Shown: in pieces, positions 9,855 through 21,734 of the stretch | How the letters are laid out: the number at the start of each line of letters is the position of its first letter | How positions within the stretch are numbered: the first letter of the stretch is position 1 | IMG/VR virus record: IMGVR_UViG_3300020020_000171 | Span: 1-21,737 of that record | DNA: 21,737 nt | Reading direction: 5' to 3' (one strand) | Source of the DNA: a virus | Notes under the pieces: model-generated | The model's database searches: none | Told to the model about the DNA's origin: nothing | What the model saw: only the letters and a program-made list of their open reading frames with translations | Made by a program: the position numbers and the translations under genes

Positions 9855-10064
9855 CTAGTCATTCAGTCGATCTGCCATTTGGATCAGCGGGACCAGCACC
9901 CAGGCCAGCAGCCCGAGGGCGATGAAGTTGATCCGGGTGAGCGTCACCGCAGGAGCGGCAACGGTGCCGTCCCGCCGAGCGCCTACCGGACCGTAGGAGG
10001 TGACTGCCGCGACCGCGAACAGCACCGCCGCGATGATGTAGAGGATCAGGTACAGGGTCCTCAT
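9855..10064 (-). CDS. Two-span membrane protein, holin candidate
   Basis: A 69-residue protein starting at ATG 10064, overlapping the RTX-protein stop by four bases (ATGA). It has two hydrophobic segments, residues about 3-24 (LYLILYIIAAVLFAVAAVTS) and about 48-63 (NFIALGLLAWVLVPLI), separated by a polar linker with RRDG. Size and topology fit a class II-type holin. It heads a run of three tiny membrane genes that leads into the probable endolysin. Actinophages also carry many two-span proteins of this kind with no proven role, so holin is the best guess and not a firm call. Confidence 0.65.
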   Translation of the reverse strand: MRTLYLILYIIAAVLFAVAAVTSYGPVGARRDGTVAAPAVTLTRINFIALGLLAWVLVPLIQMADRLND

Positions 10065-10849
10065 CGGACCCGCACCCTCTCGCACTGCCGCACGATGTCA
10101 CCGGCGTCGATGATGCACACGTCGCGCCCGAGGCCACCGATCAGTCGGTCACCGGGGGTTCCGTCGCGGCTGATCAGGCGGTCGTTGCCGAAGCCGCCAC
10201 GGATGGTGTCCACGCCGGTCCCGCCGTTCACGATGTCGTTGCCACGCTGGCCGAGCATGATGTCGGTCTCCGCAGCCCCGAACATGATGTCGTTGCCACC
10301 GTGCCCGGCCATCACGTCGCGGCACGGGGTGCCGACCATGGCGTTGTTGGAGTGGTTGCCCCGGATCGCGTTGAACAAGTTGGGCGGCGGGCAGCCCGTC
10401 TGGGGCACGAACGGCCCAGGGGTGGGAGTGGCCGTCACCGTCACCGTGGCAGTCGCCGTGGCCGTCACCGTTTCGGTGGCTGTCACCGTCTCGGTCGGAG
10501 TGGGCTCCTCGGTCTCACCCGGCACCTGGCAGCCGTTGGTGAAGATCGACTGGTCGCCGTGGGCCGGGACCGTGACGATCTGACCGCTCTTCAACTTGAA
10601 CTGGAACGAGGGCCAGATGTCGTAGGTGTGCCCACCATGCCCGTTCCCGTTGACGATCGCCTTGGCGTCGATGTTCACGGTGACGTACGGGTTGGACTTC
10701 GAGCCGGTGTGGTGACACACGTCGACCTTCTTGACCGGACCATCCTCCGTGGGAGAGGCGGTGGCCGTGGTGTTCTGGGTGACCCCGATGAGAACCGCAG
10801 CGATCCCCATGAGTAGTGCCGCAAGAACGGCAACGATGCGAGTTTTCAT
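10061..10849 (-). CDS. Secreted protein with VCHHTGS module and RTX-type Ca-binding repeats
   Basis: A 262-residue protein starting at ATG 10849; the ribosome site is weak. Residues 1-31 are a signal peptide (MKTR, hydrophobic core, then TATASP). Residues about 38-105 contain VCHHTGSKSNPYVTV and HGGHTYDIWPSF, a module I know from secreted actinobacterial proteins. Residues about 113-145 are a Thr/Pro/Val repeat linker. Residues about 160-250 carry glycine-rich nonapeptide-like repeats (GHGGNDIMFG, GQRGNDIVNGG, GGFGNDRL, GGLGRDVC) of the RTX/hemolysin Ca-binding type, probably a short parallel beta-roll. No catalytic domain is visible. It lies between the capsid protease region and the lysis-like genes, and overlaps the next gene. 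It may be displayed on or released from the infected cell, or added to virions; the function is unknown. Confidence 0.8.
   Translation of the reverse strand: MKTRIVAVLAALLMGIAAVLIGVTQNTTATASPTEDGPVKKVDVCHHTGSKSNPYVTVNIDAKAIVNGNGHGGHTYDIWPSFQFKLKSGQIVTVPAHGDQSIFTNGCQVPGETEEPTPTETVTATETVTATATATVTVTATPTPGPFVPQTGCPPPNLFNAIRGNHSNNAMVGTPCRDVMAGHGGNDIMFGAAETDIMLGQRGNDIVNGGTGVDTIRGGFGNDRLISRDGTPGDRLIGGLGRDVCIIDAGDIVRQCERVRVR
10429..10500 (-). repeat. Imperfect short tandem repeat encoding the Thr/Val linker
   Basis: A run of degenerate six-base units (variants of GTCACC and GTCGCC on the plus strand) encodes the alternating TET-VTA-TAT-VTV linker of the secreted RTX protein. It stays in frame and is a likely site of slippage length variation. 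Confidence 0.6.
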
Positions 10850-11022: not shown

Positions 11023-13429
11023 CGGTGCCTCCCATCCTGGCCGCCAACAGTTGCATCTTCTCTCGCCGGGCGTCGATCTTGCGGAGGTGGACGGCGACCG
11101 CCAGGGCGAGTTCCTCGGTGGACGCCTCCAGCGTGGCGGGCTGCTCGTCGTCGCGCATCACGCACCCGGCGGCGACCAGCGACACCTGCACCCCATCCTC
11201 GATGCCGACCCGGGGGACCGGGAACCCACCAGAGTTCACGGCCAGCGCGGCGATGAGTTCCTTCGGGTGCCCGTTGACCATCCGCCAATCCCCGGATAGC
11301 CCACCGGATGCCCGCAGCGCGTACCTCTGCTCGTCGGTAGCCCCGGGCCGAATCCACCCCGCCACCCAGATACCGATGTCATCCTCACCGCAGGTCACGT
11401 CAGCGACCACGGTGCAGGTGTTGTCGTAGTGCGCCATCGCCGGACGGGCGGCCCTCCGCAACGGGGCGTGCGACCCGTCCATGGTGATGTTCCCGACCGG
11501 GATCACCCCCGCGTCGGTGACCACCTCACCGGTGAGGAAGTAGGCGTAGTCGGTGTTCGACCGGGGCGGGTCGACGCACACACCGTCGAACCCGACGTGG
11601 CACACGCCCCACTGGGCGAGGTGCCCGAACACCCGACCGTCCTCGGTGACCGTGAGCGGGGTGGGCTTGTCCAGGTCAGGGTTCCTGAACCACTCCGACG
11701 GGGCACAGAACCCGGCACCAGCAACCAGGGTGAGAGCGGGTGCCGGTTCGTCGGGGATCAGGGACGGCTCCAAGCCGAGGTCCTCACTGGTCTTGACGAA
11801 CGCCTCGCTGTCCACGGACGTGGGTCGGCCCGGCCACCAGCCGAGGGCGTCGTGGTGCCACTGGGCGCAAATCTGGTTCAGGTAGCCCATGTCTTCGGGG
11901 GAGTTGGCGGCGATCTTCTCGCCCACCAACGCCCGGCACCGGTTGAAGTCGCCGGGCACACCCCAGTTGATCTTGGCGTAGCCGGGCTGACCCTTCTTCG
12001 TCCAGTAGTCGTGCAGCCGCTTGGTGTCGTCGGGGTTGGTGACCCACCCGGGGCCACGTCCCGCCTCCACCTTGCTCCGCATCGCCTCGATCACCGCCCA
12101 CGAATCGGGGAGGTCCACCTCGGGGCACCCGAGCGACGCCTTGCGGCGCTTGATGTGGGCCTTCACTGGGCCAGGGTCCTTGGCGCGGCCAATCGCCTGG
12201 ATCGCGTTCTTCAGGTCGGAGCAGTTGTCGATCGGGTAGGACCCGTCGGGCATCGCCCGACCTGCCTTGGCGTCCTTCTTCCGCTCCTCGGTGGACACGT
12301 CCCGGAGGGCGGCAGCCTGCAACGCGGCGCACGCCTCCTCGTCGTACTTCGGCGACTTGGGGTCGCACACCTCGTCGTCGACCTTCTCCCACATGGGGGC
12401 GTCACCGAGGGAGACGAACGCCTCCGCGAACGCCGGGATGCCGACGATCGAGGCCCCGGAAATCCGGGCACGGGAGAACGACATGGCCCCGGCGTCTTCG
12501 TCGAACTCGAACTCGGCGTCGTCGGCGTCCACGCTCACCCCGTACCGGCCGAAGTGGGCGATCAGCCCGATGGCTTCGTCCGCTTCCGGGGTGTCGAGGA
12601 ACGTGCCGCTGGCGTGCATCAGGTTGCCGCGCCGTTCGATGGTCTCGATGGAAGCGACGGTGATGGACCTCTTGTGCCCGTCGTCGGACTCCTTCTGCCA
12701 GGTCAGCGGCAGCGGCAGGTCCCGGAACTCCAGGCTGTCGGGGAGGAACTGGCGCTTGTCCCCGGACCACACCCCCTCGGGGGCGAGCACCCCGTGCCAC
12801 GGGATCGGTCCGTCAGGACGGCTGACGGCCTCGGGCTCGGCTTCGGCGACGGTGGCGGTCATGGTTCCTCCTTGGGCCGCCTCGGTTCCTAGGACCGGGG
12901 CGAGGGTGCAACGGCAGTTGATCCACAGTTCGATCGGGGCGGTGGGGTCGCCGGGGTAGCGCATCGGGAATCCGGCCACGTCGAACGGTTCGCCGGGGGG
13001 ACGTTGTTGTCCCTCGGTGTCGGTGTGCGCGTCCCGCACATCCTCGTCGTGCATGGTGACCCACTCCATGACCACGAACTCGTCGTCGTCACCGACAGCC
13101 TCCTGGGTGGCGGCGTTGAGGATCGCGGTGGACAACCACACCGACAGTCGGTCGGCGGTCGCCTCAGTGGGGTTCTCGGTTTTGTCCAGCGTCTCCCGTA
13201 CGTCCTTGACGAACCCCTCGATACCGGGGGGCCGACCGGTGCCGCCCTCCCGGTGATAGGTGTCGATGTAGAGCCGGGTGACCTCGGCCAACAGGTCGGC
13301 GTACCAGTTGGTCGCCGGGTAGGTCTCCAGTGCCTCGGACACCTCGGGGTAGAGGTTCTTCTCCATCTCGGTCTGGTCGAGGCGCCGTTCGGCGGCGAAC
13401 GTGACGATGTCGTTGACGAAGCGGATCAT
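11012..13429 (-). CDS. MuF-like / capsid maturation protease fusion
   Basis: An 805-residue multidomain protein starting at ATG 13429, overlapping the portal stop (ATGA). Domains in order: a helical N-terminus; a MuF-like head morphogenesis segment, residues about 115-180 (HDEDVRDAHTDTEGQ, then YPGDP and INCRC); a prohead-protease domain, about 208-340, with H252 in DGHKRS and S327 in SGASIVGIPAF as probable catalytic residues; a DNCSDLKNAIQAIGRAKDP block near 410; a GPGWVTNPDDTKRLHDYW...NQICAQWHHDALG block near 470-550; and a C-terminal domain, about 590-770, with GRVFGHLAQWGVCH, HYDNT and GIWVAGWIRPG. The protease would remove the capsid scaffold domain. A consensus ribosome site inside the frame predicts a second, shorter product. 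Confidence 0.88.
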   Translation of the reverse strand: MIRFVNDIVTFAAERRLDQTEMEKNLYPEVSEALETYPATNWYADLLAEVTRLYIDTYHREGGTGRPPGIEGFVKDVRETLDKTENPTEATADRLSVWLSTAILNAATQEAVGDDDEFVVMEWVTMHDEDVRDAHTDTEGQQRPPGEPFDVAGFPMRYPGDPTAPIELWINCRCTLAPVLGTEAAQGGTMTATVAEAEPEAVSRPDGPIPWHGVLAPEGVWSGDKRQFLPDSLEFRDLPLPLTWQKESDDGHKRSITVASIETIERRGNLMHASGTFLDTPEADEAIGLIAHFGRYGVSVDADDAEFEFDEDAGAMSFSRARISGASIVGIPAFAEAFVSLGDAPMWEKVDDEVCDPKSPKYDEEACAALQAAALRDVSTEERKKDAKAGRAMPDGSYPIDNCSDLKNAIQAIGRAKDPGPVKAHIKRRKASLGCPEVDLPDSWAVIEAMRSKVEAGRGPGWVTNPDDTKRLHDYWTKKGQPGYAKINWGVPGDFNRCRALVGEKIAANSPEDMGYLNQICAQWHHDALGWWPGRPTSVDSEAFVKTSEDLGLEPSLIPDEPAPALTLVAGAGFCAPSEWFRNPDLDKPTPLTVTEDGRVFGHLAQWGVCHVGFDGVCVDPPRSNTDYAYFLTGEVVTDAGVIPVGNITMDGSHAPLRRAARPAMAHYDNTCTVVADVTCGEDDIGIWVAGWIRPGATDEQRYALRASGGLSGDWRMVNGHPKELIAALAVNSGGFPVPRVGIEDGVQVSLVAAGCVMRDDEQPATLEASTEELALAVAVHLRKIDARREKMQLLAARMGGTGGV
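12860..12873 (-). promoter_or_regulatory. Internal ribosome site and ATG within the MuF-protease gene
   Basis: AAGGAGG (12867-12873) stands four bases before an in-frame ATG (12860-12862), residue 190 of the fusion, exactly at the boundary between the MuF-like part and the protease. Initiation here would give a 616-residue protease without the MuF domain. It is one of the best Shine-Dalgarno matches in the window, and the main start at 13429 has nothing better. Confidence 0.7.
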
Positions 13430-15204
13430 CCGGCCTCCTCCTCAGCGAGCCGCAGCCAGTTCCGCAACCGACCCCGTTCGTGAGGCTGGCGGCCTTGGAT
13501 CAGGGAGGTGCAGTACGAGTCGAGCAGCGGGACCACGACCGCCGGGTCGCCGATCCCTTCCAGCACCATCGGGGCACACGACCAGGCGTCGTCGAGCAGT
13601 TTCGCGGTGTTGACCGGGGTGACGTACAGGTGGGTCTCGTAGGCGGGGACGCCCGGTGGTTTGGCAGTGGACTGGCGGAGCCGGTTCCCGGCACGTTCCA
13701 GCGCCCGGAACACCAGCGCCTCGGAGGCGGCGACCAGTGCGGACTCGGCTGGGGTGCGGGGCCGGGTGGGGTGACCTTCGAGGGACGGGGTGGGGCGTTC
13801 CAGCCGGGGAGCCTGGTTGGTGGTGACCGGGCCGAGGTCGACGCCGAGTTGGGCCATCGCGGCCTGCACCTGTTCGGGGGTGGTGGACTGGGTGGCGGCC
13901 TTGACCAGCAGCCAGGTCTGGAACTCCTCCTCGGACGCCATGTCTTCGAGGGCGAACCCGTTCTCTCGGAACAGGGCCTTCGGGGACAGCAGCCCCCGGT
14001 CGTACAACTCGAAGGCTTCCTGGGACCGGTCGGGCCGGAGCCGGAGCCGTTCGGTGGAGTAGGTGACGAACGCGGAGACGGACTCTTCCCCGTCGGAGAT
14101 GGTGGGCCGCAGGTAACCCATGGTGAGCGCGTTGCACACCGTGTCCAGCATCGGCTCGATGTGCAACTTGATGGTGGACTCTTCGATCTGCCACGCACCC
14201 CAGTGCGACACCCCGTTGCTGTTGCCACCACCGGTGCCGCCGTTGCTGGACATTCCGAGCACCTGCTCGGGGGGCAGGTCCATGCCGAGCGCGAACCGGC
14301 GGATCGCCTCCACCCGCATGTCCATGGAGGCCGAGTCCAGGGCGGACCAGAACTCCAGCAGCCGGGGCTTGTCGATGGCGTCGTCGGGGGCGGTGACCAC
14401 GATCGGGACCAGCGCGGACGGTGACCCTGGGTCGGCGATGGGGGCCATCATCGCCTCGGCCAAGGTGAGCATGAACTCGTCGGCCTCGTTGGCGCCGGTG
14501 ACCTCGTGGCCCTCTTGGGCGGGGGGCTTGGGGAACGACATGCCCTGCGGCATCAACAGGATGCCCGCCCCGGCCAGGCGGCTGGTGATCTGAGCGAACA
14601 CGTGCCGGGTGAGCCATTCGATCTCGGACAGGATCGGCAGCAGGGAACGGAACGGGGAGTCGGCTTCGACGTGCTTGCCGGGGGCGGGCAGCCAGATGCG
14701 GATGACCACGTCGTCTTCGGTGAGGTCGATCGGCGGCAGCCCGTTGCCGTAGTTGATCTGCCACTGGTCGTTGGCGACGACCTGCACTTCGAGGCAGGAC
14801 AGCACTTCCCACAGGTCGCCGGTGATGGCTTGGCGGCCGATCAGGTAGCACTCCCCGGCGACGGTGAGGTGCAACCCGATGGCGTCGAGCATCTGGGTTT
14901 GGCCGTCGGGTCCGTTGAACAGGTCGACCAGGGCTTCGTAGGCGGGTCCGGAGTCCAGGGACTCGATGCTTCCTTCGCCGTCGAGTTGGGCTGCGGACAG
15001 CACGGCCCGGGACAGGGCGTGCCCGAAGAACCGTGCCCCGTACCGGGCTTCCCCACAGATCGCGTAGTGCCGGTAACACTCCCGTTGCCAGTCCTGTCGC
15101 TGGGAGTAGATACGGACACCCTTGCCCGGATAACGGGTCGACGAGGCGACTAGTGACTTTGTCGTCGGAATGGCGACAGCACTGGAGGGCTTTTCTCTGG
15201 GCAC
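13426..15204 (-). CDS. Portal protein
   Basis: A 592-residue protein starting at GTG 15204, with GGGGAG five bases upstream inside an inverted repeat. It fits the phage portal family in length and order: an N-terminal arm; a wing region with LTVAGECYLIGRQ and DDVVIRIWLPAPGKHVEADSPFR (residues about 170-192), typical of actinophage portals, where W-x-P-x-P and a D-S-P-x-R motif recur; the helical stem VEAIRRFALGMDLPPEQVLGM followed by a glycine-rich loop (SSNGGTGGGNSNG); and a helical crown with an extended C-terminal part. The portal forms the dodecameric DNA channel and the docking site for terminase and adaptor. It lies between the packaging genes and the MuF-protease gene, as expected. Confidence 0.93.
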   Translation of the reverse strand: MPREKPSSAVAIPTTKSLVASSTRYPGKGVRIYSQRQDWQRECYRHYAICGEARYGARFFGHALSRAVLSAAQLDGEGSIESLDSGPAYEALVDLFNGPDGQTQMLDAIGLHLTVAGECYLIGRQAITGDLWEVLSCLEVQVVANDQWQINYGNGLPPIDLTEDDVVIRIWLPAPGKHVEADSPFRSLLPILSEIEWLTRHVFAQITSRLAGAGILLMPQGMSFPKPPAQEGHEVTGANEADEFMLTLAEAMMAPIADPGSPSALVPIVVTAPDDAIDKPRLLEFWSALDSASMDMRVEAIRRFALGMDLPPEQVLGMSSNGGTGGGNSNGVSHWGAWQIEESTIKLHIEPMLDTVCNALTMGYLRPTISDGEESVSAFVTYSTERLRLRPDRSQEAFELYDRGLLSPKALFRENGFALEDMASEEEFQTWLLVKAATQSTTPEQVQAAMAQLGVDLGPVTTNQAPRLERPTPSLEGHPTRPRTPAESALVAASEALVFRALERAGNRLRQSTAKPPGVPAYETHLYVTPVNTAKLLDDAWSCAPMVLEGIGDPAVVVPLLDSYCTSLIQGRQPHERGRLRNWLRLAEEEAG

Positions 15205-15569: not shown

Positions 15570-15724
15570 GAGTTCCCCCTGATGTTCGCGGTGATGGTCT
15601 GCCCCAGGAGGATGAGGGCCTGCTCCTCGGTGAACCCCTCGTCGACCAGGGCGACAAACATCTGACGCGCCGCGTTCGCCATCGCGCGCATGTCGGCGTT
15701 GGGTTCCATCTTGGGATCGTTCAT
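15566..15724 (-). CDS. 52-residue hypothetical protein after terminase
   Basis: ATG 15724 overlaps the terminase stop by one base (TGATG), and its own TGA overlaps the next GTG by four bases. The product has a helical layout: ADMRAMANAARQMFVALVDE, then GFTEEQALILLGQTITANI. The FxALVxEGFTEEQALxLL pattern recurs in small actinophage proteins encoded near terminase and looks like a UBA-like or helical hairpin module, but I know no function. Tight coupling on both sides supports a real gene. Confidence 0.75.
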   Translation of the reverse strand: MNDPKMEPNADMRAMANAARQMFVALVDEGFTEEQALILLGQTITANIRGNS

Positions 15725-17163
15725 CACACGGCCCGCAGGTGGGCGGGGCGGTCGACCCGGCGGGTGCGGAGCAGCCGGTCCGGGGACGCGATCTGGGCGG
15801 GCATCACGATCTTGGCGAGTTCGGTGCAGGCGTGCACCAGGGCGTCCACCCGGTTCGGGGACGACCCTTCGCCGGGCACCCAGGTGGTCTGCTCTTCTTC
15901 CAGTTCGGCGAGGTCGCCGGAGCGGCCGACGTGGAAGACCCGGCCCTTCTCGTAGAGCGCGACGATCGGTTCGGCACGCAGTTCCTTCCCGCGCCGGGAC
16001 TCGGCGAGGATCACCCGGGCTCCGTTGTGGCCGGTGGATTCCAGCGTGTGCTTGACCATGTCACCGCCGTAGTTCTTCTCGGCGACGATGGCGTCGGCCT
16101 TGAACGTCTCGTACTCACCGTTCGCCCGACCAGCCCACCCGGCGGGACTGTACTTGCCGGTCGCGTCGGCGAACACGTACAGGTTGCGGTCGTGGCCGAT
16201 ACCGACGGTGATGATGCCGGTGTCGTCAGACTTCTTGTTGGTGGACCCGGCGGGGTCGACCCCCACCACCATCCGGATCATCGGGGGCGGGTCAAGGATG
16301 TAGTGGAACATCTCCCAGTTCCACAGGGCGCCTTCCACATCTTCGAGGACTTCGCCGTGGAGTTCCTGGCGTCCGGTGCGGGTGCCTTCGTACCGTTCGA
16401 GGATGGTGTCCCGGAACGTAGGGGCCAGGTTGATCAAGTTCGCGTAGGTGGACACGGTGTGGGTGATAGTGCGGGGGTCTTTCAGGAGGGTCTTCATGAA
16501 CCCGGTGGGCTTGGGAGTGGTGGTGGCGACCACCTTCGGCCGCAACGGTTGACCGTTGATGCTCCGCTTCACCCGGAGACCGAGCAACAGGTTGTCCCAG
16601 CACTCGGTGGCGAGGTCCCAGTGAGCGGGCTCGTCGGCCCACGCGAACCCGTGCTCGGGGCCACGGAGCCGGTCGGGCTCCTCGGCGGAGAACCCCTGGC
16701 CGATGCACCCGCTGGGCCAGGTGAGCCGCTTCCTCGACGGCTCCCACAGTGGGCGCTTGCCGGGGGGTGCGGTCGCCAGGATGCCGGACTCTCCCTCGAC
16801 CATGATCTCGCGGAGGTCGGGTCCGGTGGCGGCGATGAGCGCGACTCGGGGGGTGGCTTCCGATGCCCGGTGCGTCACCTCCGATCCGGTGCGGGTTTTC
16901 CCGGAGCCGCGCCCACCTTTGAGCAGCCACACCAGCCAGTCCAGCGACCAGTACGGGGGCCGTTGGTCGGCTCGGGCGTGCTGCCAGTCCCAGGTGTCGT
17001 GGGGGTTGCCGTCGCAATCAGGGCGTTGGCAGTAGAACGGCCGCCATGACGAGTTGGAGAACTCGTTCAGCAGTTCGACAGCACGGGCTTGGGACTCGGG
17101 TCGCCAGTGCCGGTATTCATCGAGGCCAACCTCTGGCACGTGGCCCGGTGTCGGGTCACGCAT
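15724..17163 (-). CDS. Terminase large subunit
   Basis: A 479-residue protein from ATG 17163 (GTG 17172 is an equally possible start; the open frame to 17274 is unlikely). The ATPase domain has Walker A GGRGSGKT (residues 83-90), Walker B FAWADE (173-178) and a coupling motif VVATTTPKPT (211-220). The nuclease domain begins with VVGVDPAGS (D303), continues with AIVAEKNYGGDM and ends with NRVDALVHACTELA, supplying the acidic metal ligands. It packages DNA into the prohead through the portal and cuts concatemers. Residues 45-60 carry a C-x(4)-C with His that may bind metal. The gene start overlaps the upstream zinc-finger gene by about 97 bases. Confidence 0.95.
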   Translation of the reverse strand: MRDPTPGHVPEVGLDEYRHWRPESQARAVELLNEFSNSSWRPFYCQRPDCDGNPHDTWDWQHARADQRPPYWSLDWLVWLLKGGRGSGKTRTGSEVTHRASEATPRVALIAATGPDLREIMVEGESGILATAPPGKRPLWEPSRKRLTWPSGCIGQGFSAEEPDRLRGPEHGFAWADEPAHWDLATECWDNLLLGLRVKRSINGQPLRPKVVATTTPKPTGFMKTLLKDPRTITHTVSTYANLINLAPTFRDTILERYEGTRTGRQELHGEVLEDVEGALWNWEMFHYILDPPPMIRMVVGVDPAGSTNKKSDDTGIITVGIGHDRNLYVFADATGKYSPAGWAGRANGEYETFKADAIVAEKNYGGDMVKHTLESTGHNGARVILAESRRGKELRAEPIVALYEKGRVFHVGRSGDLAELEEEQTTWVPGEGSSPNRVDALVHACTELAKIVMPAQIASPDRLLRTRRVDRPAHLRAV

Positions 17164-17267
17164 GGCAGACACCAGAACCCGCCGTGTAGGCGGGTGGCGT
17201 GGGCGCCAGGGCGCAGCAGAAGGCCGCAGCCACCTGCACACCGTTGGGTCCACCTGACCTTCGCCAT
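17067..17267 (-). CDS. Small zinc-finger-like protein overlapping the terminase start
   Basis: A 66-residue protein from ATG 17267. The N-terminal half contains CAGGCGLLLRPG and RLHGGFWCLPC, a paired C-x3-C and C-x2-C arrangement that fits a treble-clef or zinc-ribbon fold. Similar short proteins appear near terminase genes in actinophages, and HNH endonucleases often begin with such a knuckle, but no HNH catalytic His/Asn set is present. The last 33 residues overlap the terminase coding region in another frame and look less structured. The ribosome site is modest (GAAGGG, rather far upstream). Function unknown; a packaging or DNA-binding accessory is possible. Confidence 0.55.
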   Translation of the reverse strand: MAKVRWTQRCAGGCGLLLRPGAHATRLHGGFWCLPCVTRHRATCQRLASMNTGTGDPSPKPVLSNC

Positions 17268-17298
17268 GCCACAAGAATACCCTTCTGCCCCATTTGAC

Positions 17299-17607
17299 TC
17301 ACCTGACTTCTTCGTTGGTGTTGGCGGGGCCGATCGCCACGGACTTCCAGAACCTCGACATCGTGTGGTTGGTCTGGCCGGGGTCGAACAGGTGACCCGC
17401 CGGTCCTCGGGGCGGTGGCAACGCGGCGACCAGTTCGTCGTAGTCCAACCCGAGGTCCCGGGCCAAGGCGGCACAGGTCGCCAACTGGTAGTACACGGTG
17501 TTCGACGGCACGCCGGTCTTCAGGCAGGCGTCGTAGACCAGCATCGGCATGTCGGCCGAGGTGGTGAACTGCACCTTCGCCCGGAACTCATCCAGCCTGA
17601 ATGGCAT
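17299..17607 (-). CDS. Conserved-type actinophage hypothetical protein near terminase
   Basis: A 102-residue protein from ATG 17607 behind GAAGGG, overlapping the previous gene by 20 bases. The middle (TGVPSNTVYYQLATCAALARDLGLDYDELVAAL, given as two helices with a turn at LGLDYDEL) is followed by PPPRGPAGHLFDP and an NHTMSR segment. I recall this ALARDLxLxxDEL...LPPxRGPxxHLFDP pattern from actinophage and prophage genes next to terminase, but no function is attached to it. Position suggests a packaging or DNA-binding accessory role. The upstream open frame to 17727 is shadow. Confidence 0.7.
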   Translation of the reverse strand: MPFRLDEFRAKVQFTTSADMPMLVYDACLKTGVPSNTVYYQLATCAALARDLGLDYDELVAALPPPRGPAGHLFDPGQTNHTMSRFWKSVAIGPANTNEEVR

Positions 17608-18136
17608 CGTCTGGCCCTTCGATCTCTCCGGCGATGATGTCGTACTCGACGACCTCGGGCATCTGGAACGCCACCACCTTGGCGACCCAGGCTTCCAGTT
17701 CGGCTTGCGACGGGTTGTGCACGACAACCTCGACGGGGGAGTCCAGCCCGAACAGTTTGCGGTGGTCGGCGATCACCTCCCGAGCCTTGGAGATGAACAC
17801 GGCCTGGTCGGGGTTCTCGGGGTCGATGGCCTTGGGCCAGGCGGCCCGGATCAGCCGTTCCAGGCGAGCGCCCGCCAGCCTGCGCATCTTCTCCCGGTCG
17901 TCGGCGTTGGCGAGTTCGCGTTCCAGCGCCTTCTCGGTGGCGACCATGGCGGTGCGGGGGGTGGGGTAGCCGAGACCTTGGGCGATCTCGGTCCAGGTCG
18001 CCCCGGCGTACCGCATCTGCAAGGCGGCGTTGGCCTTGCGATTCCGAGCGCGTCCGGCCGCGTTGCCGGGGTCCTTCCACTGCTTCGTCGGTGAGGACAC
18101 TCCGGTCGGGTCTGTGCTGTCCTGTTGCTGCACCAT
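17588..18136 (-). CDS. HTH protein, probable terminase small subunit
   Basis: A 182-residue protein from ATG 18136, chosen because GGAGG stands six bases upstream; the open frame reaches a TTG at 18148. A polar N-terminus precedes a basic segment (GRARNRKANAALQMR) and a helix-turn-helix at residues about 41-64 (YAGATWTEIAQGLGY with PTPRTA as recognition helix start). Then come helices with DDREKMRRLAGARLERLIRAAW and a C-terminal helical part. A small HTH-plus-helices protein encoded just before the large terminase is typical of the small subunit, which recognises the packaging site. It could also be a different DNA-binding regulator. It follows the modification cassette after only 20 bases. 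Confidence 0.7.
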   Translation of the reverse strand: MVQQQDSTDPTGVSSPTKQWKDPGNAAGRARNRKANAALQMRYAGATWTEIAQGLGYPTPRTAMVATEKALERELANADDREKMRRLAGARLERLIRAAWPKAIDPENPDQAVFISKAREVIADHRKLFGLDSPVEVVVHNPSQAELEAWVAKVVAFQMPEVVEYDIIAGEIEGPDDAIQAG

Positions 18137-18156
18137 CGTTGCCTCCAACGCCTGTT

Positions 18157-18849
18157 CTACACGGTCTCAGTGGGAACCGGCGACGCCCACGCCCCGATCA
18201 GGGACCACACGTGCCACCGCCACAACAGGGTGGGGGTGTGCCACCCGGCGGCGGTCAGGTCCCTGGCGATCCAGGTCGGGGACGCCTGGTACAGCATCCC
18301 CCGCAGCGCCTTGGTCTTGGCGACCCGATCCGGGTCGGTGACCCCGGCGTCCGTCTTGTACTCGTCGAGGGCGGCGACCGCGACCTCTTCCCACCGGGGT
18401 CGGCGGTGCCGAGTCTTGGCGGCCACCAGCACGCACCCGGTGGGCTTGGACCTGACCCGGGCGTCGTGCAGGATGCGCACCCATTGGCCGGGGGGCACGA
18501 ACTGGAGCAGCCACAGGCACACGGTCAGGTCGGCGTCGTGGTGGTCGAGGGTGCCGGGCAGGGACAGCAGGTGGGTCTTCGCGGACGGCACCCGCTGCTC
18601 GGCTTCGGCGAGCATCGAGGGGTCCTCGTCGTACAGGTGGTAGTCGACGGCCCGGTCGTGCAGGTGGGCTTGGAGGGTGGCAGCGGTGCGGCCAGTGGAG
18701 CAGCCGAGGTCAGCGACGGTGCCGCCGGGGGGAACCGCGAACTCGGCGACCAGACTGACCAGGCGTTGCACGTCGGCGTACCCGGGCAGGTGCGCGGCGA
18801 CGTGGGTGTCGAACTCGGGGCCGAAGTCGGTGAACGTCCAATCGCTCAT
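18157..18849 (-). CDS. CmoA-like class I methyltransferase fold: candidate carboxy-SAM synthase
   Basis: A 230-residue protein from ATG 18849, overlapping the AsnB-like stop by four bases. It follows E. coli CmoA (247 residues) along most of its length as I remember that sequence: W4-T-F with a downstream PGY (22-24), motif I VADLGCSTG (45-53), LQFVPP (115-120) facing CmoA LQFLEP, the YK near 164, basic K178/K180 near the position of CmoA R199, which binds the carboxylate, then AAGW and LLWRW (208-212) facing AGF and LWFQ. CmoA makes carboxy-SAM from SAM and prephenate, normally for CmoB in tRNA wobble modification; no CmoB partner is present here. Its neighbour is a DNA cytosine methyltransferase, suggesting it supplies CxSAM for DNA. 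An ordinary SAM methyltransferase remains the alternative. Confidence 0.72.
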   Translation of the reverse strand: MSDWTFTDFGPEFDTHVAAHLPGYADVQRLVSLVAEFAVPPGGTVADLGCSTGRTAATLQAHLHDRAVDYHLYDEDPSMLAEAEQRVPSAKTHLLSLPGTLDHHDADLTVCLWLLQFVPPGQWVRILHDARVRSKPTGCVLVAAKTRHRRPRWEEVAVAALDEYKTDAGVTDPDRVAKTKALRGMLYQASPTWIARDLTAAGWHTPTLLWRWHVWSLIGAWASPVPTETV

Positions 18850-20210
18850 ACCGGCACCTTCCCGAACATCCGCAGGTGCTCTGCACGGTAGTACCGGGTG
18901 GGGTCGGCGATCAGGTTCGCGGTGGCCTTGGTGATCTTGGTCCCGGTCTGGAAGGCGTGCTTGGGCCGCCACCCCAACCCTTCGGGGAGCAGGTCGTCGA
19001 GGGCGGTGGCGAGGACCGCTTTGGGGTGTGCCCCACCCTGGGTGATCTGGTCGCGGGACATGCCGAGGATGTGCCGGACCAAGGGGTCGTGCAGGAACGG
19101 CAACCGGGGTTCGATGCCGTGCGCCATGAACACCTTGTTGGTGCGGGCGAAGTTCTTCTTGTGCTGCCGGGTGAACATCTCGGACCGGTAGCCGAACCAC
19201 CCGGAGCGTTGGATGCCGTGCCACCCCCACCCGTAGGAGCCGAACAGTTCGTCGGAGCCTTCCCCGGACAAGACGACCTTCACCCCGTCCCGGCGCATGG
19301 CGTCGGCGAGCGGGAGGCAGCCGAGGGCTATCTCGATCTGGGCCTTGTAGACCATCTCGGTGGCGGCGATGGCGTCGCCGATGGTGGCCCGGGTGGGTTC
19401 GGGGATGGGCACTTCGATCAGGGGTAGGCCGAGGTGGTCGCACACGATCCTGGACCACTTCAGGTCGGCGGTGCGCTTGTTGTAGAACGCGGTGTAGCAG
19501 GTGGGCTGGTAGCCGTTCTTGACCAAGAGGGCGAGGATCGCCGAGGAGTCGAGGCCGCCGGACACCAGGCAGGCGACCGGGGCGTCGGAGGTCATCCGGT
19601 CCACGGCACCGTCGGCGAGCAGGGCGGCGAGGTCGCCGTCGGGGTGGTCTCGTTCGCTGAGGGGTTCGGCCCAGGTGTGGGAGACCACGTCGGACCCGGT
19701 GATGGACAGGTAGGTGCCGGGTTCGACCCACCCGATCGTGTGCGGGTACACGCCGTGGGCGAGGAGGGCCTTGATCTCGGAGGCGTACACGATCTGGTTG
19801 GTGCGGGTGCGGCCCCAGTGCAGGGGGACTTCGCCGTAGTGGTCGCGGGCCAGCCACAGGGTGTGCCCGTCGGTCCAGGCGAGGGCGAACATGCCGTGCA
19901 GCATCGGCAGGGCGTCGGTGCCGTACCGGTGCAGGGCTGTGGCGACGACCTCGGTGTCGCCGGTGGTGCGCCAATCCCCGCCCAAGGCGTGCCGCAGTTT
20001 GTGCGGCTGCCACAGTTCGCCGTTGTAGGTGACCACCACGGCCCCGGTGTCCCAGGGCTGGTTGGAGTCGTCGGTGAGGTCTTGGACGGCGAGCCGGGTG
20101 TGACCGAGCAGGTAAGGGCCGCAGACCAGGGTGGCTTGGTGGTCGGGGCCACGGTGGGCGAGGGTGGACAGGTCGACGGTGGCGATCTGGCCGCCGATCA
20201 GACCGCACAC
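18846..20210 (-). CDS. AsnB-like glutamine-dependent amidotransferase
   Basis: A 454-residue protein from GTG 20210, chosen because it places the nucleophile at Cys2 (MCGLIGG), which is required after Met removal. The glutaminase domain is complete: R39 in GHTRLAV, NGE at 63-65, GDTE at 84-87. The synthetase domain has the PP-loop SGGLDSS (217-223) and SGEGSDELFG (315-324), as in asparagine synthetase B, but the protein is about 100 residues shorter than E. coli AsnB (554). Such enzymes adenylate a carboxylate and replace it with an amide using ammonia from glutamine. It overlaps the DNA methyltransferase by 13 bases and the CmoA-like gene by four, so the three are coupled. I infer a role in amidating a carboxyl group on modified DNA; plain asparagine synthesis is the alternative. 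Confidence 0.85.
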   Translation of the reverse strand: MCGLIGGQIATVDLSTLAHRGPDHQATLVCGPYLLGHTRLAVQDLTDDSNQPWDTGAVVVTYNGELWQPHKLRHALGGDWRTTGDTEVVATALHRYGTDALPMLHGMFALAWTDGHTLWLARDHYGEVPLHWGRTRTNQIVYASEIKALLAHGVYPHTIGWVEPGTYLSITGSDVVSHTWAEPLSERDHPDGDLAALLADGAVDRMTSDAPVACLVSGGLDSSAILALLVKNGYQPTCYTAFYNKRTADLKWSRIVCDHLGLPLIEVPIPEPTRATIGDAIAATEMVYKAQIEIALGCLPLADAMRRDGVKVVLSGEGSDELFGSYGWGWHGIQRSGWFGYRSEMFTRQHKKNFARTNKVFMAHGIEPRLPFLHDPLVRHILGMSRDQITQGGAHPKAVLATALDDLLPEGLGWRPKHAFQTGTKITKATANLIADPTRYYRAEHLRMFGKVPV

Positions 20211-21220
20211 AGGACCGTGTCCTTCAAGGTGGCGGCGACGGCTCGCATCATCGGGGGTGGCACGGCGCGGCCGAGTCGTTCCCACCGTTGGGCGTAGGTG
20301 CCGGTGAGGATGTAGTCGTCGGGGAACCCGCAGAGGGCTTTGAGTTCGCTGATGCTGAAACTGCGGGTCCGGTCGGGGTGTGGGTGTTCGGACAGGACGT
20401 GGTCGTCGGCGAGGGTGGTCAGGTCGACGCCGGTGTCGGGGTCGATCCTCAGTGGTGGGGCTCCGGTGAGGATGGCTTGCCGGATCGCGCGTCCGTGGAT
20501 GCCGCTGGCTTGGAGGGTGGGCAGGGGCCTGGCGGCGTGGATGCGGTCCCATCGGGCGTTGGAGTTGCGAGGGTTGTGGGTCCACAGGCAGGCGAGGCGT
20601 CCGAGGACCACGGACATGGGCACGACGGGACCGGGGGTGGGGTGGGGTGGCTCGATGTCGAGGTCGTTGCGGACCCCGACGAAGATCACCCGGACTCGTT
20701 TCTGGGGGACGCCGAGGCGGGAGGCGTCGAGTTTGCGGGCGGCGACCCGGTAGCCGCATCCGGCGAGGGCGGCGTGGATGGTCTTGAAGTGGCCGACAGA
20801 GACCCCGGAGGCGAGGCCGGGGACGTTCTCGGCGACGAAGGTCTTGGGTTGGAGGGCGTCGAGGAGCCGGATGTATTCGCCGAACAGGTCGTCGGTGCGT
20901 TGGGTGGTGTCGGAGTAGCGGCGGACCTTGCCCCAGGTGGCGCTGGTGAGACCGCCGGTGGTGTAGGCGGCGCAGGGTGGGGAGCCGTCGAGGAGGTCGA
21001 TCTCGCCGACGCTGAGGCCGGTGGCGGACAGGATGTGGCCGGGGGTGATGGTGCGGATGTCGGCGCAGTTGAGGATGGTGTCGCGGTGGTTGGCGGCGTA
21101 GGTCTGGGCGGCGGCGGGGATGAACTCGTTGGCCCACACCACGTCGTATCCGGCTTGTTCGTACCCGAGGCAGGACCCGCCTGCCCCGGAGAAGGTGGAC
21201 ACGACTTTAGGGTTGGGCAT
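20198..21220 (-). CDS. C5-cytosine DNA methyltransferase with atypical motif X (LGRAVPP)
   Basis: A 340-residue protein from ATG 21220, overlapping the ParB-like stop by 14 bases. Motifs in order: I TFSGAGG (9-15), IV GSPPCAAYT with Cys83 as nucleophile, VI ENV (131-133), VIII QKRVRVIF (173-180), a target-recognition region of about 190-285, IX near RPLPTLQA (231-238) and X at 309-325. The catalytic set is complete, so it should attack cytosine C5. The oddity is motif X: where the family has GN(A/S)V, this protein has GRAV with Arg318 (codon CGC, 20267-20269). That Asn lies near the transferred methyl group of SAM. PCAAYT also replaces the usual PCQxFS. Together with the CmoA-like gene, this suggests a carboxymethyl donor. 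Target sequence unknown. Confidence 0.93.
   Translation of the reverse strand: MPNPKVVSTFSGAGGSCLGYEQAGYDVVWANEFIPAAAQTYAANHRDTILNCADIRTITPGHILSATGLSVGEIDLLDGSPPCAAYTTGGLTSATWGKVRRYSDTTQRTDDLFGEYIRLLDALQPKTFVAENVPGLASGVSVGHFKTIHAALAGCGYRVAARKLDASRLGVPQKRVRVIFVGVRNDLDIEPPHPTPGPVVPMSVVLGRLACLWTHNPRNSNARWDRIHAARPLPTLQASGIHGRAIRQAILTGAPPLRIDPDTGVDLTTLADDHVLSEHPHPDRTRSFSISELKALCGFPDDYILTGTYAQRWERLGRAVPPPMMRAVAATLKDTVLCAV
20267..20269 (-). other. Codon for Arg318 in methyltransferase motif X
   Basis: CGC (Arg) stands where family members carry Asn in the GN(A/S)V signature. An AAC or AAT codon would need at least two base changes, so a single sequencing error is an unlikely cause. See the findings for its meaning. 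Confidence 0.75.
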
Positions 21221-21734
21221 TCCCGTTCCATTCGTAGCCGCAGGCGGGGCAGGTGTGGGCGGTGGGCAGGTCGGGGGGGATGGTGGCGAACCCGGCGTGG
21301 TCGAGGCGGGTGACGAGTTGCCGGAGGTCTTCGAGGTCCTGGTCGGCCCACCCGGTGCCGAGCAAGGTGTCGTCGGTGGCGATGGTGTCGAGGAGGGACA
21401 GCAGGAGGTTGTCGTCGTAGGTGCCGAGTTGGGCGGATCGGTTGTCGACGAGCAGGATGCGGCGGGCGGTGGCGTCGTCGACATCGAGCCAGACGACGGG
21501 GACCTTGTCGGCGCCGAGGGACAGGAGGGCGGCCGTGGTGTGGTTACCGGCGAGTAACGTGCCGTCTTTGCGGGCGTAGACCGGACGGTAGAGGCCGTTG
21601 ATCTCGATGGAGGTGGCGATCGCGTCGGTGTCGCCGTTCCAGGGATTGTCGGGGTGCGGGTGGACCTGGTCGATGTCGACCAGGAGGGGGGCCAGGGATT
21701 CGTGGCCTTGGGCGAGTCCGCCGAGCGGGATCAT
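21207..21734 (-). CDS. ParB/Srx-like domain protein (start near window edge)
   Basis: A 175-residue protein from ATG 21734. The window ends three bases further, so an earlier start cannot be excluded. Residues about 18-95 fit the ParB N-terminal/sulfiredoxin-like fold: DIDQVHPHPDNPWNGDTDAI (18-37), then INGLYRPVYAR, LLAGNHTTAALLSLG and VPVVWLDVDD, with ILLVDNRSAQLG after it. The GNHTTAA element stands where ParB proteins have GxRRxxA. The C-terminal part is helical and ends with CPACGYEW, half of a zinc knuckle. ParB-like domains of this type are often encoded with phage or prophage DNA methyltransferases, where their role is unclear; the fold can bind or hydrolyse nucleotides. It overlaps the methyltransferase gene by 14 bases and probably belongs to the same modification cassette. 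Confidence 0.8.
   Translation of the reverse strand: MIPLGGLAQGHESLAPLLVDIDQVHPHPDNPWNGDTDAIATSIEINGLYRPVYARKDGTLLAGNHTTAALLSLGADKVPVVWLDVDDATARRILLVDNRSAQLGTYDDNLLLSLLDTIATDDTLLGTGWADQDLEDLRQLVTRLDHAGFATIPPDLPTAHTCPACGYEWNGNAQP

Follow-up and report, generated by a model that had tools for sequence, protein, structure and literature searches.

The 21,737-base IMG/VR virus record analysed here over its whole length (the window) probably belongs to an actinophage-like virus that hypermodifies its own DNA by means of CmoA, CmoX and an ammonia-using, glutamine-type CmoY. Judged from gene content and active-site residues, its cassette is most probably a functional carboxy-SAM (Cx-SAM) cytosine hypermodification system of the glutamine type, and the end product is most likely 5-carbamoylmethylcytosine. 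A glutamine-type Cx-SAM cassette is now placed in an actinophage-like virus, and the motif K-x3-E, which replaces the aspartate pocket of AsnB, represents a sequence signature common to glycine- and glutamine-type ligases. The CmoA/CmoX/CmoY pathway was proven biochemically for the Synechococcus phage S-B43 (Nat Commun, 7 Dec 2025; PMC12783734), where CmoA produces Cx-SAM, CmoX forms 5-carboxymethylcytosine in GC motifs, CmoY adds glycine as an amide, and 5gcxmdC was detected in virion DNA. An earlier reading of the window from its sequence alone had left it undecided whether a system of this exact composition was described; the pathway is in fact published. The same study counted 5,615 CmoX candidates and, in their contigs, 4,257 CmoA, 2,251 ligases and 1,660 ParBc genes, already reported the association of ParBc with the cassette, and described a ligase cluster, the second largest, whose members have a domain for glutamine hydrolysis; ammonia was the presumed substrate, and the recombinant protein was insoluble (PMC12783734). 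The window cassette adds to this system and fits the glutamine-hydrolysing CmoY cluster (A0A7T0Q3R0) in composition, as domain composition and presumed ammonia substrate are the same and no important difference was found.

Organization of the cassette and host group

Four overlapping genes, all on the minus strand, constitute the cassette in the order ParB-like, C5 cytosine methyltransferase (CmoX), AsnB-like (CmoY) and CmoA-like. The first encodes a ParB-like (ParBc) protein (21207..21734; phrog_723, 9.6e-35), the second a 340-aa homologue of the DNA cytosine C5-carboxymethyltransferase CmoX (20198..21220; Pfam DNA_methylase, PF00145, 1.9e-48), the third a 454-aa AsnB-like amide ligase of the glutamine-hydrolysing CmoY type with a GTG start (18846..20210; Asn_synthase 1.8e-39, GATase_6 3.6e-26 and GATase_7), and the fourth a 230-aa CmoA-like, putative carboxy-SAM synthase (18157..18849; NCBIfam TIGR00740 7.5e-14, phrog_4752 4.5e-36). 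The ParB-like and CmoX genes overlap by 14 nt, CmoX and CmoY by 13 nt, and CmoY and CmoA by 4 nt (ATGA). The order and coordinates of the last three genes are as the sequence-only reading had given them, as is the position of the cassette directly upstream of the packaging genes; the ParB-like fourth gene was absent from its list. Downstream, likewise on the minus strand, come a small protein (17588..18148; phrog_645, 3.7e-22, labelled 'Rnase E'), which from its position is a possible small terminase subunit, the terminase large subunit (15724..17274; Terminase_6N, 8.2e-24, and Terminase_6C) and the portal protein (13426..15204). Third-position GC amounts to 0.89–0.93 in the four cassette genes, which supports real coding, and the recurrence of the cassette across many phages argues that the grouping of the genes is not due to chance.

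The structural genes of the contig, all on the minus strand, comprise terminase, portal, a MuF/protease-like fusion, major capsid, major tail and tape measure. The nearest phages of the large terminase infect Arthrobacter and Curtobacterium. Terminase and portal have their closest relatives in phages that infect Arthrobacter, Curtobacterium and Microbacterium, which makes an actinobacterium the probable host. The sole megablast match of the window against phages covered 58 bases in the terminase. Among the phage head genes lies one (10061-10849, minus strand) for a protein of 262 aa that has RTX calcium-binding repeats (PF00353, 2.1e-8) and a start resembling a signal peptide, an unusual location for such a protein.

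Co-occurrence and distribution of the cassette genes

Cassette loci in viral contigs were found with alignment queries, single-protein queries having given no matches there; the IMG/VR loci are redundant, and their counts were de-duplicated by shared 5-mers. The sequence-only reading had proposed counting the co-occurrence of its trio in other phages and had named a lack of it as a refutation. Co-occurrence proved near-complete, so that this objection falls away: both CmoX and CmoA neighbour CmoY in all 17 of the 17 distinct CmoY-Gln viral loci that have 2.5 kb or more of flanking sequence on each side, and in none (0 of 55) of the other AsnB-like loci. Starting from CmoX, a CmoA was present at 24 of 25 distinct viral loci, and a ParB-like gene occupies the same position in many viral loci. 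The same search in bacterial genomes gave 59 loci, four of which (in Streptomyces and Nonomuraea) carry the full ParB-CmoX-CmoY-CmoA cassette, whereas the remaining 55 asparagine-synthase-like loci show neither CmoX nor CmoA in the stretch examined, some of these contigs being short. One 95,726-base contig among the Streptomyces and Nonomuraea assemblies with the full cassette (L193, L194, L195 and L196) agrees in length and range with an IMG/VR record, which suggests that the cassettes in these assemblies sit in prophages or phage-plasmids.

In 197 actinomycete genomes CmoA was detected in five at 1e-15, none of them over the cut-off and one of them a cassette carrier, so actinomycetes are mostly without CmoA, which would explain why a phage carries its own. 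The Gordonia phage Evaa (L003, 1-5649) has a CmoA-like gene near a ParB gene and a ParB-methyltransferase fusion, upstream of the terminase, and no AsnB-like gene is annotated in its first 10 kb. One contig assigned to Candidatus Paceibacter (L198) contains, at its end, a CmoY-like gene (41% identity), and a ParB-like gene lies close by.

Conserved residues of CmoX

The best PDB match of the window CmoX is 8yf3, the SpCmoX crystal structure (3.7e-53), with HaeIII and DNMT1 far behind (1e-21). Every SpCmoX contact with Cx-SAM that was checked is identical in the window protein (F25, E47, F48, D69 and R350), and the SPPC catalytic motif is kept, with S83-P84-P85-C86 aligning with S95-C98 of SpCmoX. 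Wild-type SpCmoX accepts only Cx-SAM, whose carboxylate R350 contacts, whereas M.HhaI has Asn304 at this position (PMC12783734). By both sequence search and alignment, R321 of the window protein (in a numbering that counts three residues before the ATG) corresponds to R350, and the position is Arg in 95 of 96 distinct phage CmoX homologues, the other one having a gap. The predicted transfer of the carboxymethyl group from Cx-SAM to C5 of cytosine by the window CmoX is very probable.

An ordinary SAM-dependent 5mC methyltransferase that merely neighbours a generic methyltransferase and an asparagine synthetase to which it is unrelated would agree with the Pfam labels, which are only generic, and with a CmoA that scores under the curated cut-off. 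The arginine in place of Asn304 of M.HhaI, the near-complete co-occurrence of the three genes and the remodelled AsnB pocket of CmoY make this explanation highly improbable; the R350-equivalent Arg and the co-occurrence were the grounds for rejecting a plain 5mC methyltransferase. Tandem duplicate CmoX genes were observed right after CmoY in seven viral contigs (L036, L044, L045, L047, L051, L082 and L085), perhaps reflecting two target motifs.

Domain architecture and remodelled pocket of CmoY

Glutaminases of the AsnB/PurF kind need a Cys directly after the initial Met, and the window CmoY begins with M-C-G from its GTG start, which places Cys2 there. The glutaminase residues C1, R49, N74, G75 and D98 are all intact in the window CmoY and in 32 of 32 distinct cassette CmoYs, as is the ATP loop of the AsnB-type ATP-pyrophosphatase domain, which in the window reads SGGLDSS (PP-loop), and K449 is also kept in the window. 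The AF2 model of CmoY (pLDDT 90.5) finds its best solved match in E. coli AsnB (1ct9) over the whole length, with Z 45.0, rmsd 2.1 and 438 aligned residues. The two proteins have in common the fold of both domains, the glutaminase site, the PP-loop and E348/D351/E352, whereas the window CmoY is about 100 residues shorter, lacks a counterpart of AsnB Cys523, and has the aspartate-binding T-T-x-R replaced. In AsnB, aspartate and ATP are bound by the segment with T322/T323/R325 (Met-counted numbering; PMC5775275 lists the corresponding residues), and in the window CmoY these three are A/Q/E, inside the K-x3-E motif. An identity as asparagine synthetase B was rejected on these three positions and on Cys523, for which CmoY has no residue; the shortening and the missing Cys523 counterpart may have opened the pocket to DNA.

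The motif K-A-Q-[VI]-E(-I) replaces V-T-T-I-R of AsnB in 31 of the 32 distinct cassette CmoYs, and both K and E of K-x3-E are present in all 32, against 0 of 47 other AsnB-like proteins; these 47 are mostly not strict AS-B enzymes, so that E. coli AsnB and the residues listed in the literature served as the basis for comparing TT-x-R. The glycine-type SpCmoY and eight viral single-domain relatives carry K-x3-E at the same position, and the presence of the motif in glycine- and glutamine-type ligases points to a common 5cxmC acceptor. K-x3-E may read the 5cxmC acceptor, and the presence or absence of the glutaminase domain may set the amine donor. In the phylogenetic tree the cassette CmoYs group in a single clade that is supported (100/98) and separate from AsnB. 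Here the window protein sits on a long branch and pairs with that of locus L015, where the genes are arranged in the same order. Loci with the actinophage order ParB-CmoX-CmoY-CmoA are for the most part placed in other regions of the tree than those with CmoA-CmoY-CmoX.

That 5-carboxymethylcytosine is made and the glutamine-type CmoY then couples another amine, such as an amino acid or a polyamine, is a further explanation, which we regard as unlikely. Beta-lactam and carbapenam synthetases share the CmoY fold, and beta-lactam synthetase exemplifies an AsnB scaffold able to use a different nucleophile. The sole proven CmoY is of the glycine-adding type, and several CmoY clusters have distinct pockets (PMC12783734). 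Against another amine stand the five glutaminase residues, including the Cys after Met, whose conservation in every cassette CmoY argues that glutamine hydrolysis is used.

Assignment of the CmoA-like protein

CmoA is the weakest link of the cassette assignment. TIGR00740 (CmoA) is the top NCBIfam match of the window protein, yet its score of 52 bits lies below the cut-off of 193.3, and the cassette CmoAs of actinomycetes also remain under this cut-off. Its sequence matches in the PDB are only CmoA/YecO structures. The AF2 model (pLDDT 91.6) has 4gek CmoA as the top fold match (Z 28.7, rmsd 2.4, 222 aligned residues), with CysG tied at Z 28.0, so that the fold comparison does not separate the protein from the CysG/BelI methyltransferases (Z tied within 1 or nearly so). 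Other invariant positions are kept (Y24, D47, G49, G53, F117, K145, K165 and K178), and K145, K165 and K178 match lysines invariant across 93 phage CmoAs and E. coli. Arg199 of E. coli CmoA forms a salt bridge with the Cx-SAM carboxylate (PMC3663124), but its counterpart is Thr in the window and Glu in the active SpCmoA, and the position is not conserved among phage CmoAs. R199 was dropped as a membership residue, given that the experimentally active SpCmoA is without it; context and overall similarity were the grounds for calling the window protein CmoA-like.

The position of E. coli Glu164, a residue conserved in CmoA and suggested to have a possible general-base role (PMC3663124), is occupied by Ala144 in the window, whereas Glu or Asp stands there in 92 of 93 phage CmoAs, which makes the activity of this CmoA unsure. 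Loss of this acidic residue could have impaired the cassette of the window virus, which would then, without Cx-SAM from the host, make plain or no modified cytosine; Ala144 and the rarity of CmoA in actinomycete hosts speak for this. We consider it improbable, as the reading frames are all intact and tightly overlapping, the other invariant CmoA positions are kept, the role of the acidic residue in catalysis is only a suggested one, and a single base of a metagenome assembly may be wrong. Homology, active-site residues and co-occurrence are established for the window cassette, and a functional system remains the preferred reading.

Proposed pathway and relation to known systems

In the proposed pathway, CmoA would convert SAM and prephenate to carboxy-SAM, a compound that is not normally produced by actinobacterial hosts; CmoX would flip out cytosine, form an adduct between the catalytic Cys of SPPC and cytosine C6, and move the carboxymethyl group to C5 to give 5-carboxymethylcytosine; and the two-domain CmoY would adenylate the carboxylate of this base with ATP and couple it to ammonia that its glutaminase domain frees from glutamine, yielding 5-carbamoylmethylcytosine. 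Protection of the phage DNA from restriction would be the likely benefit; both this role and ammonia as the nucleophile are what we infer from the cassette. For homologues, the reactions of CmoA and of CmoX have been demonstrated, as has the formation of an amide (with glycine). The sequence-only reading had proposed the same reactions, and its pathway gains from homologous S-B43 enzymes that perform them and from the diagnostic residues of CmoX and of the glutaminase kept in the window; for its product, amide formation is proven in S-B43 with glycine, and the primary amide would follow from the glutamine type of the ligase. No report of 5-carbamoylmethylcytosine in natural DNA was found in the literature. 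It seems fairly probable that glutamine-type cassettes make this base and are widespread in actinophages and other, largely environmental, phages.

The S-B43 system shares with the window the clustering of the same three enzyme families, a CmoX that is 37% identical and K-x3-E in both ligases. Gene order and host group are not the same in the two. Glycine is the substrate of the S-B43 ligase, a protein of 271 aa with a single domain, whereas the ligase of the window carries a glutaminase domain at its N-terminus, and the GC target motif is proven for SpCmoX only. The 5-carbamoyloxymethylcytosine system (PMC8670742) likewise has a carbamoylated cytosine in phage-like DNA, but is built on 5-hydroxymethylcytosine by a carbamoyltransferase, without Cx-SAM and without an AsnB-like enzyme. 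Pelagiphage hypermodification (PMC9599517) was set aside as a thymidine pathway unrelated to the window cassette. The Streptomyces phage TurkishDelight encodes ParB-CmoX-CmoY-CmoA as gp122-125 (gp122 being ParB), in an order identical to that of the window, and as this phage is cultured, what the second-largest cluster of CmoYs finally makes is open to a direct test on virion DNA.
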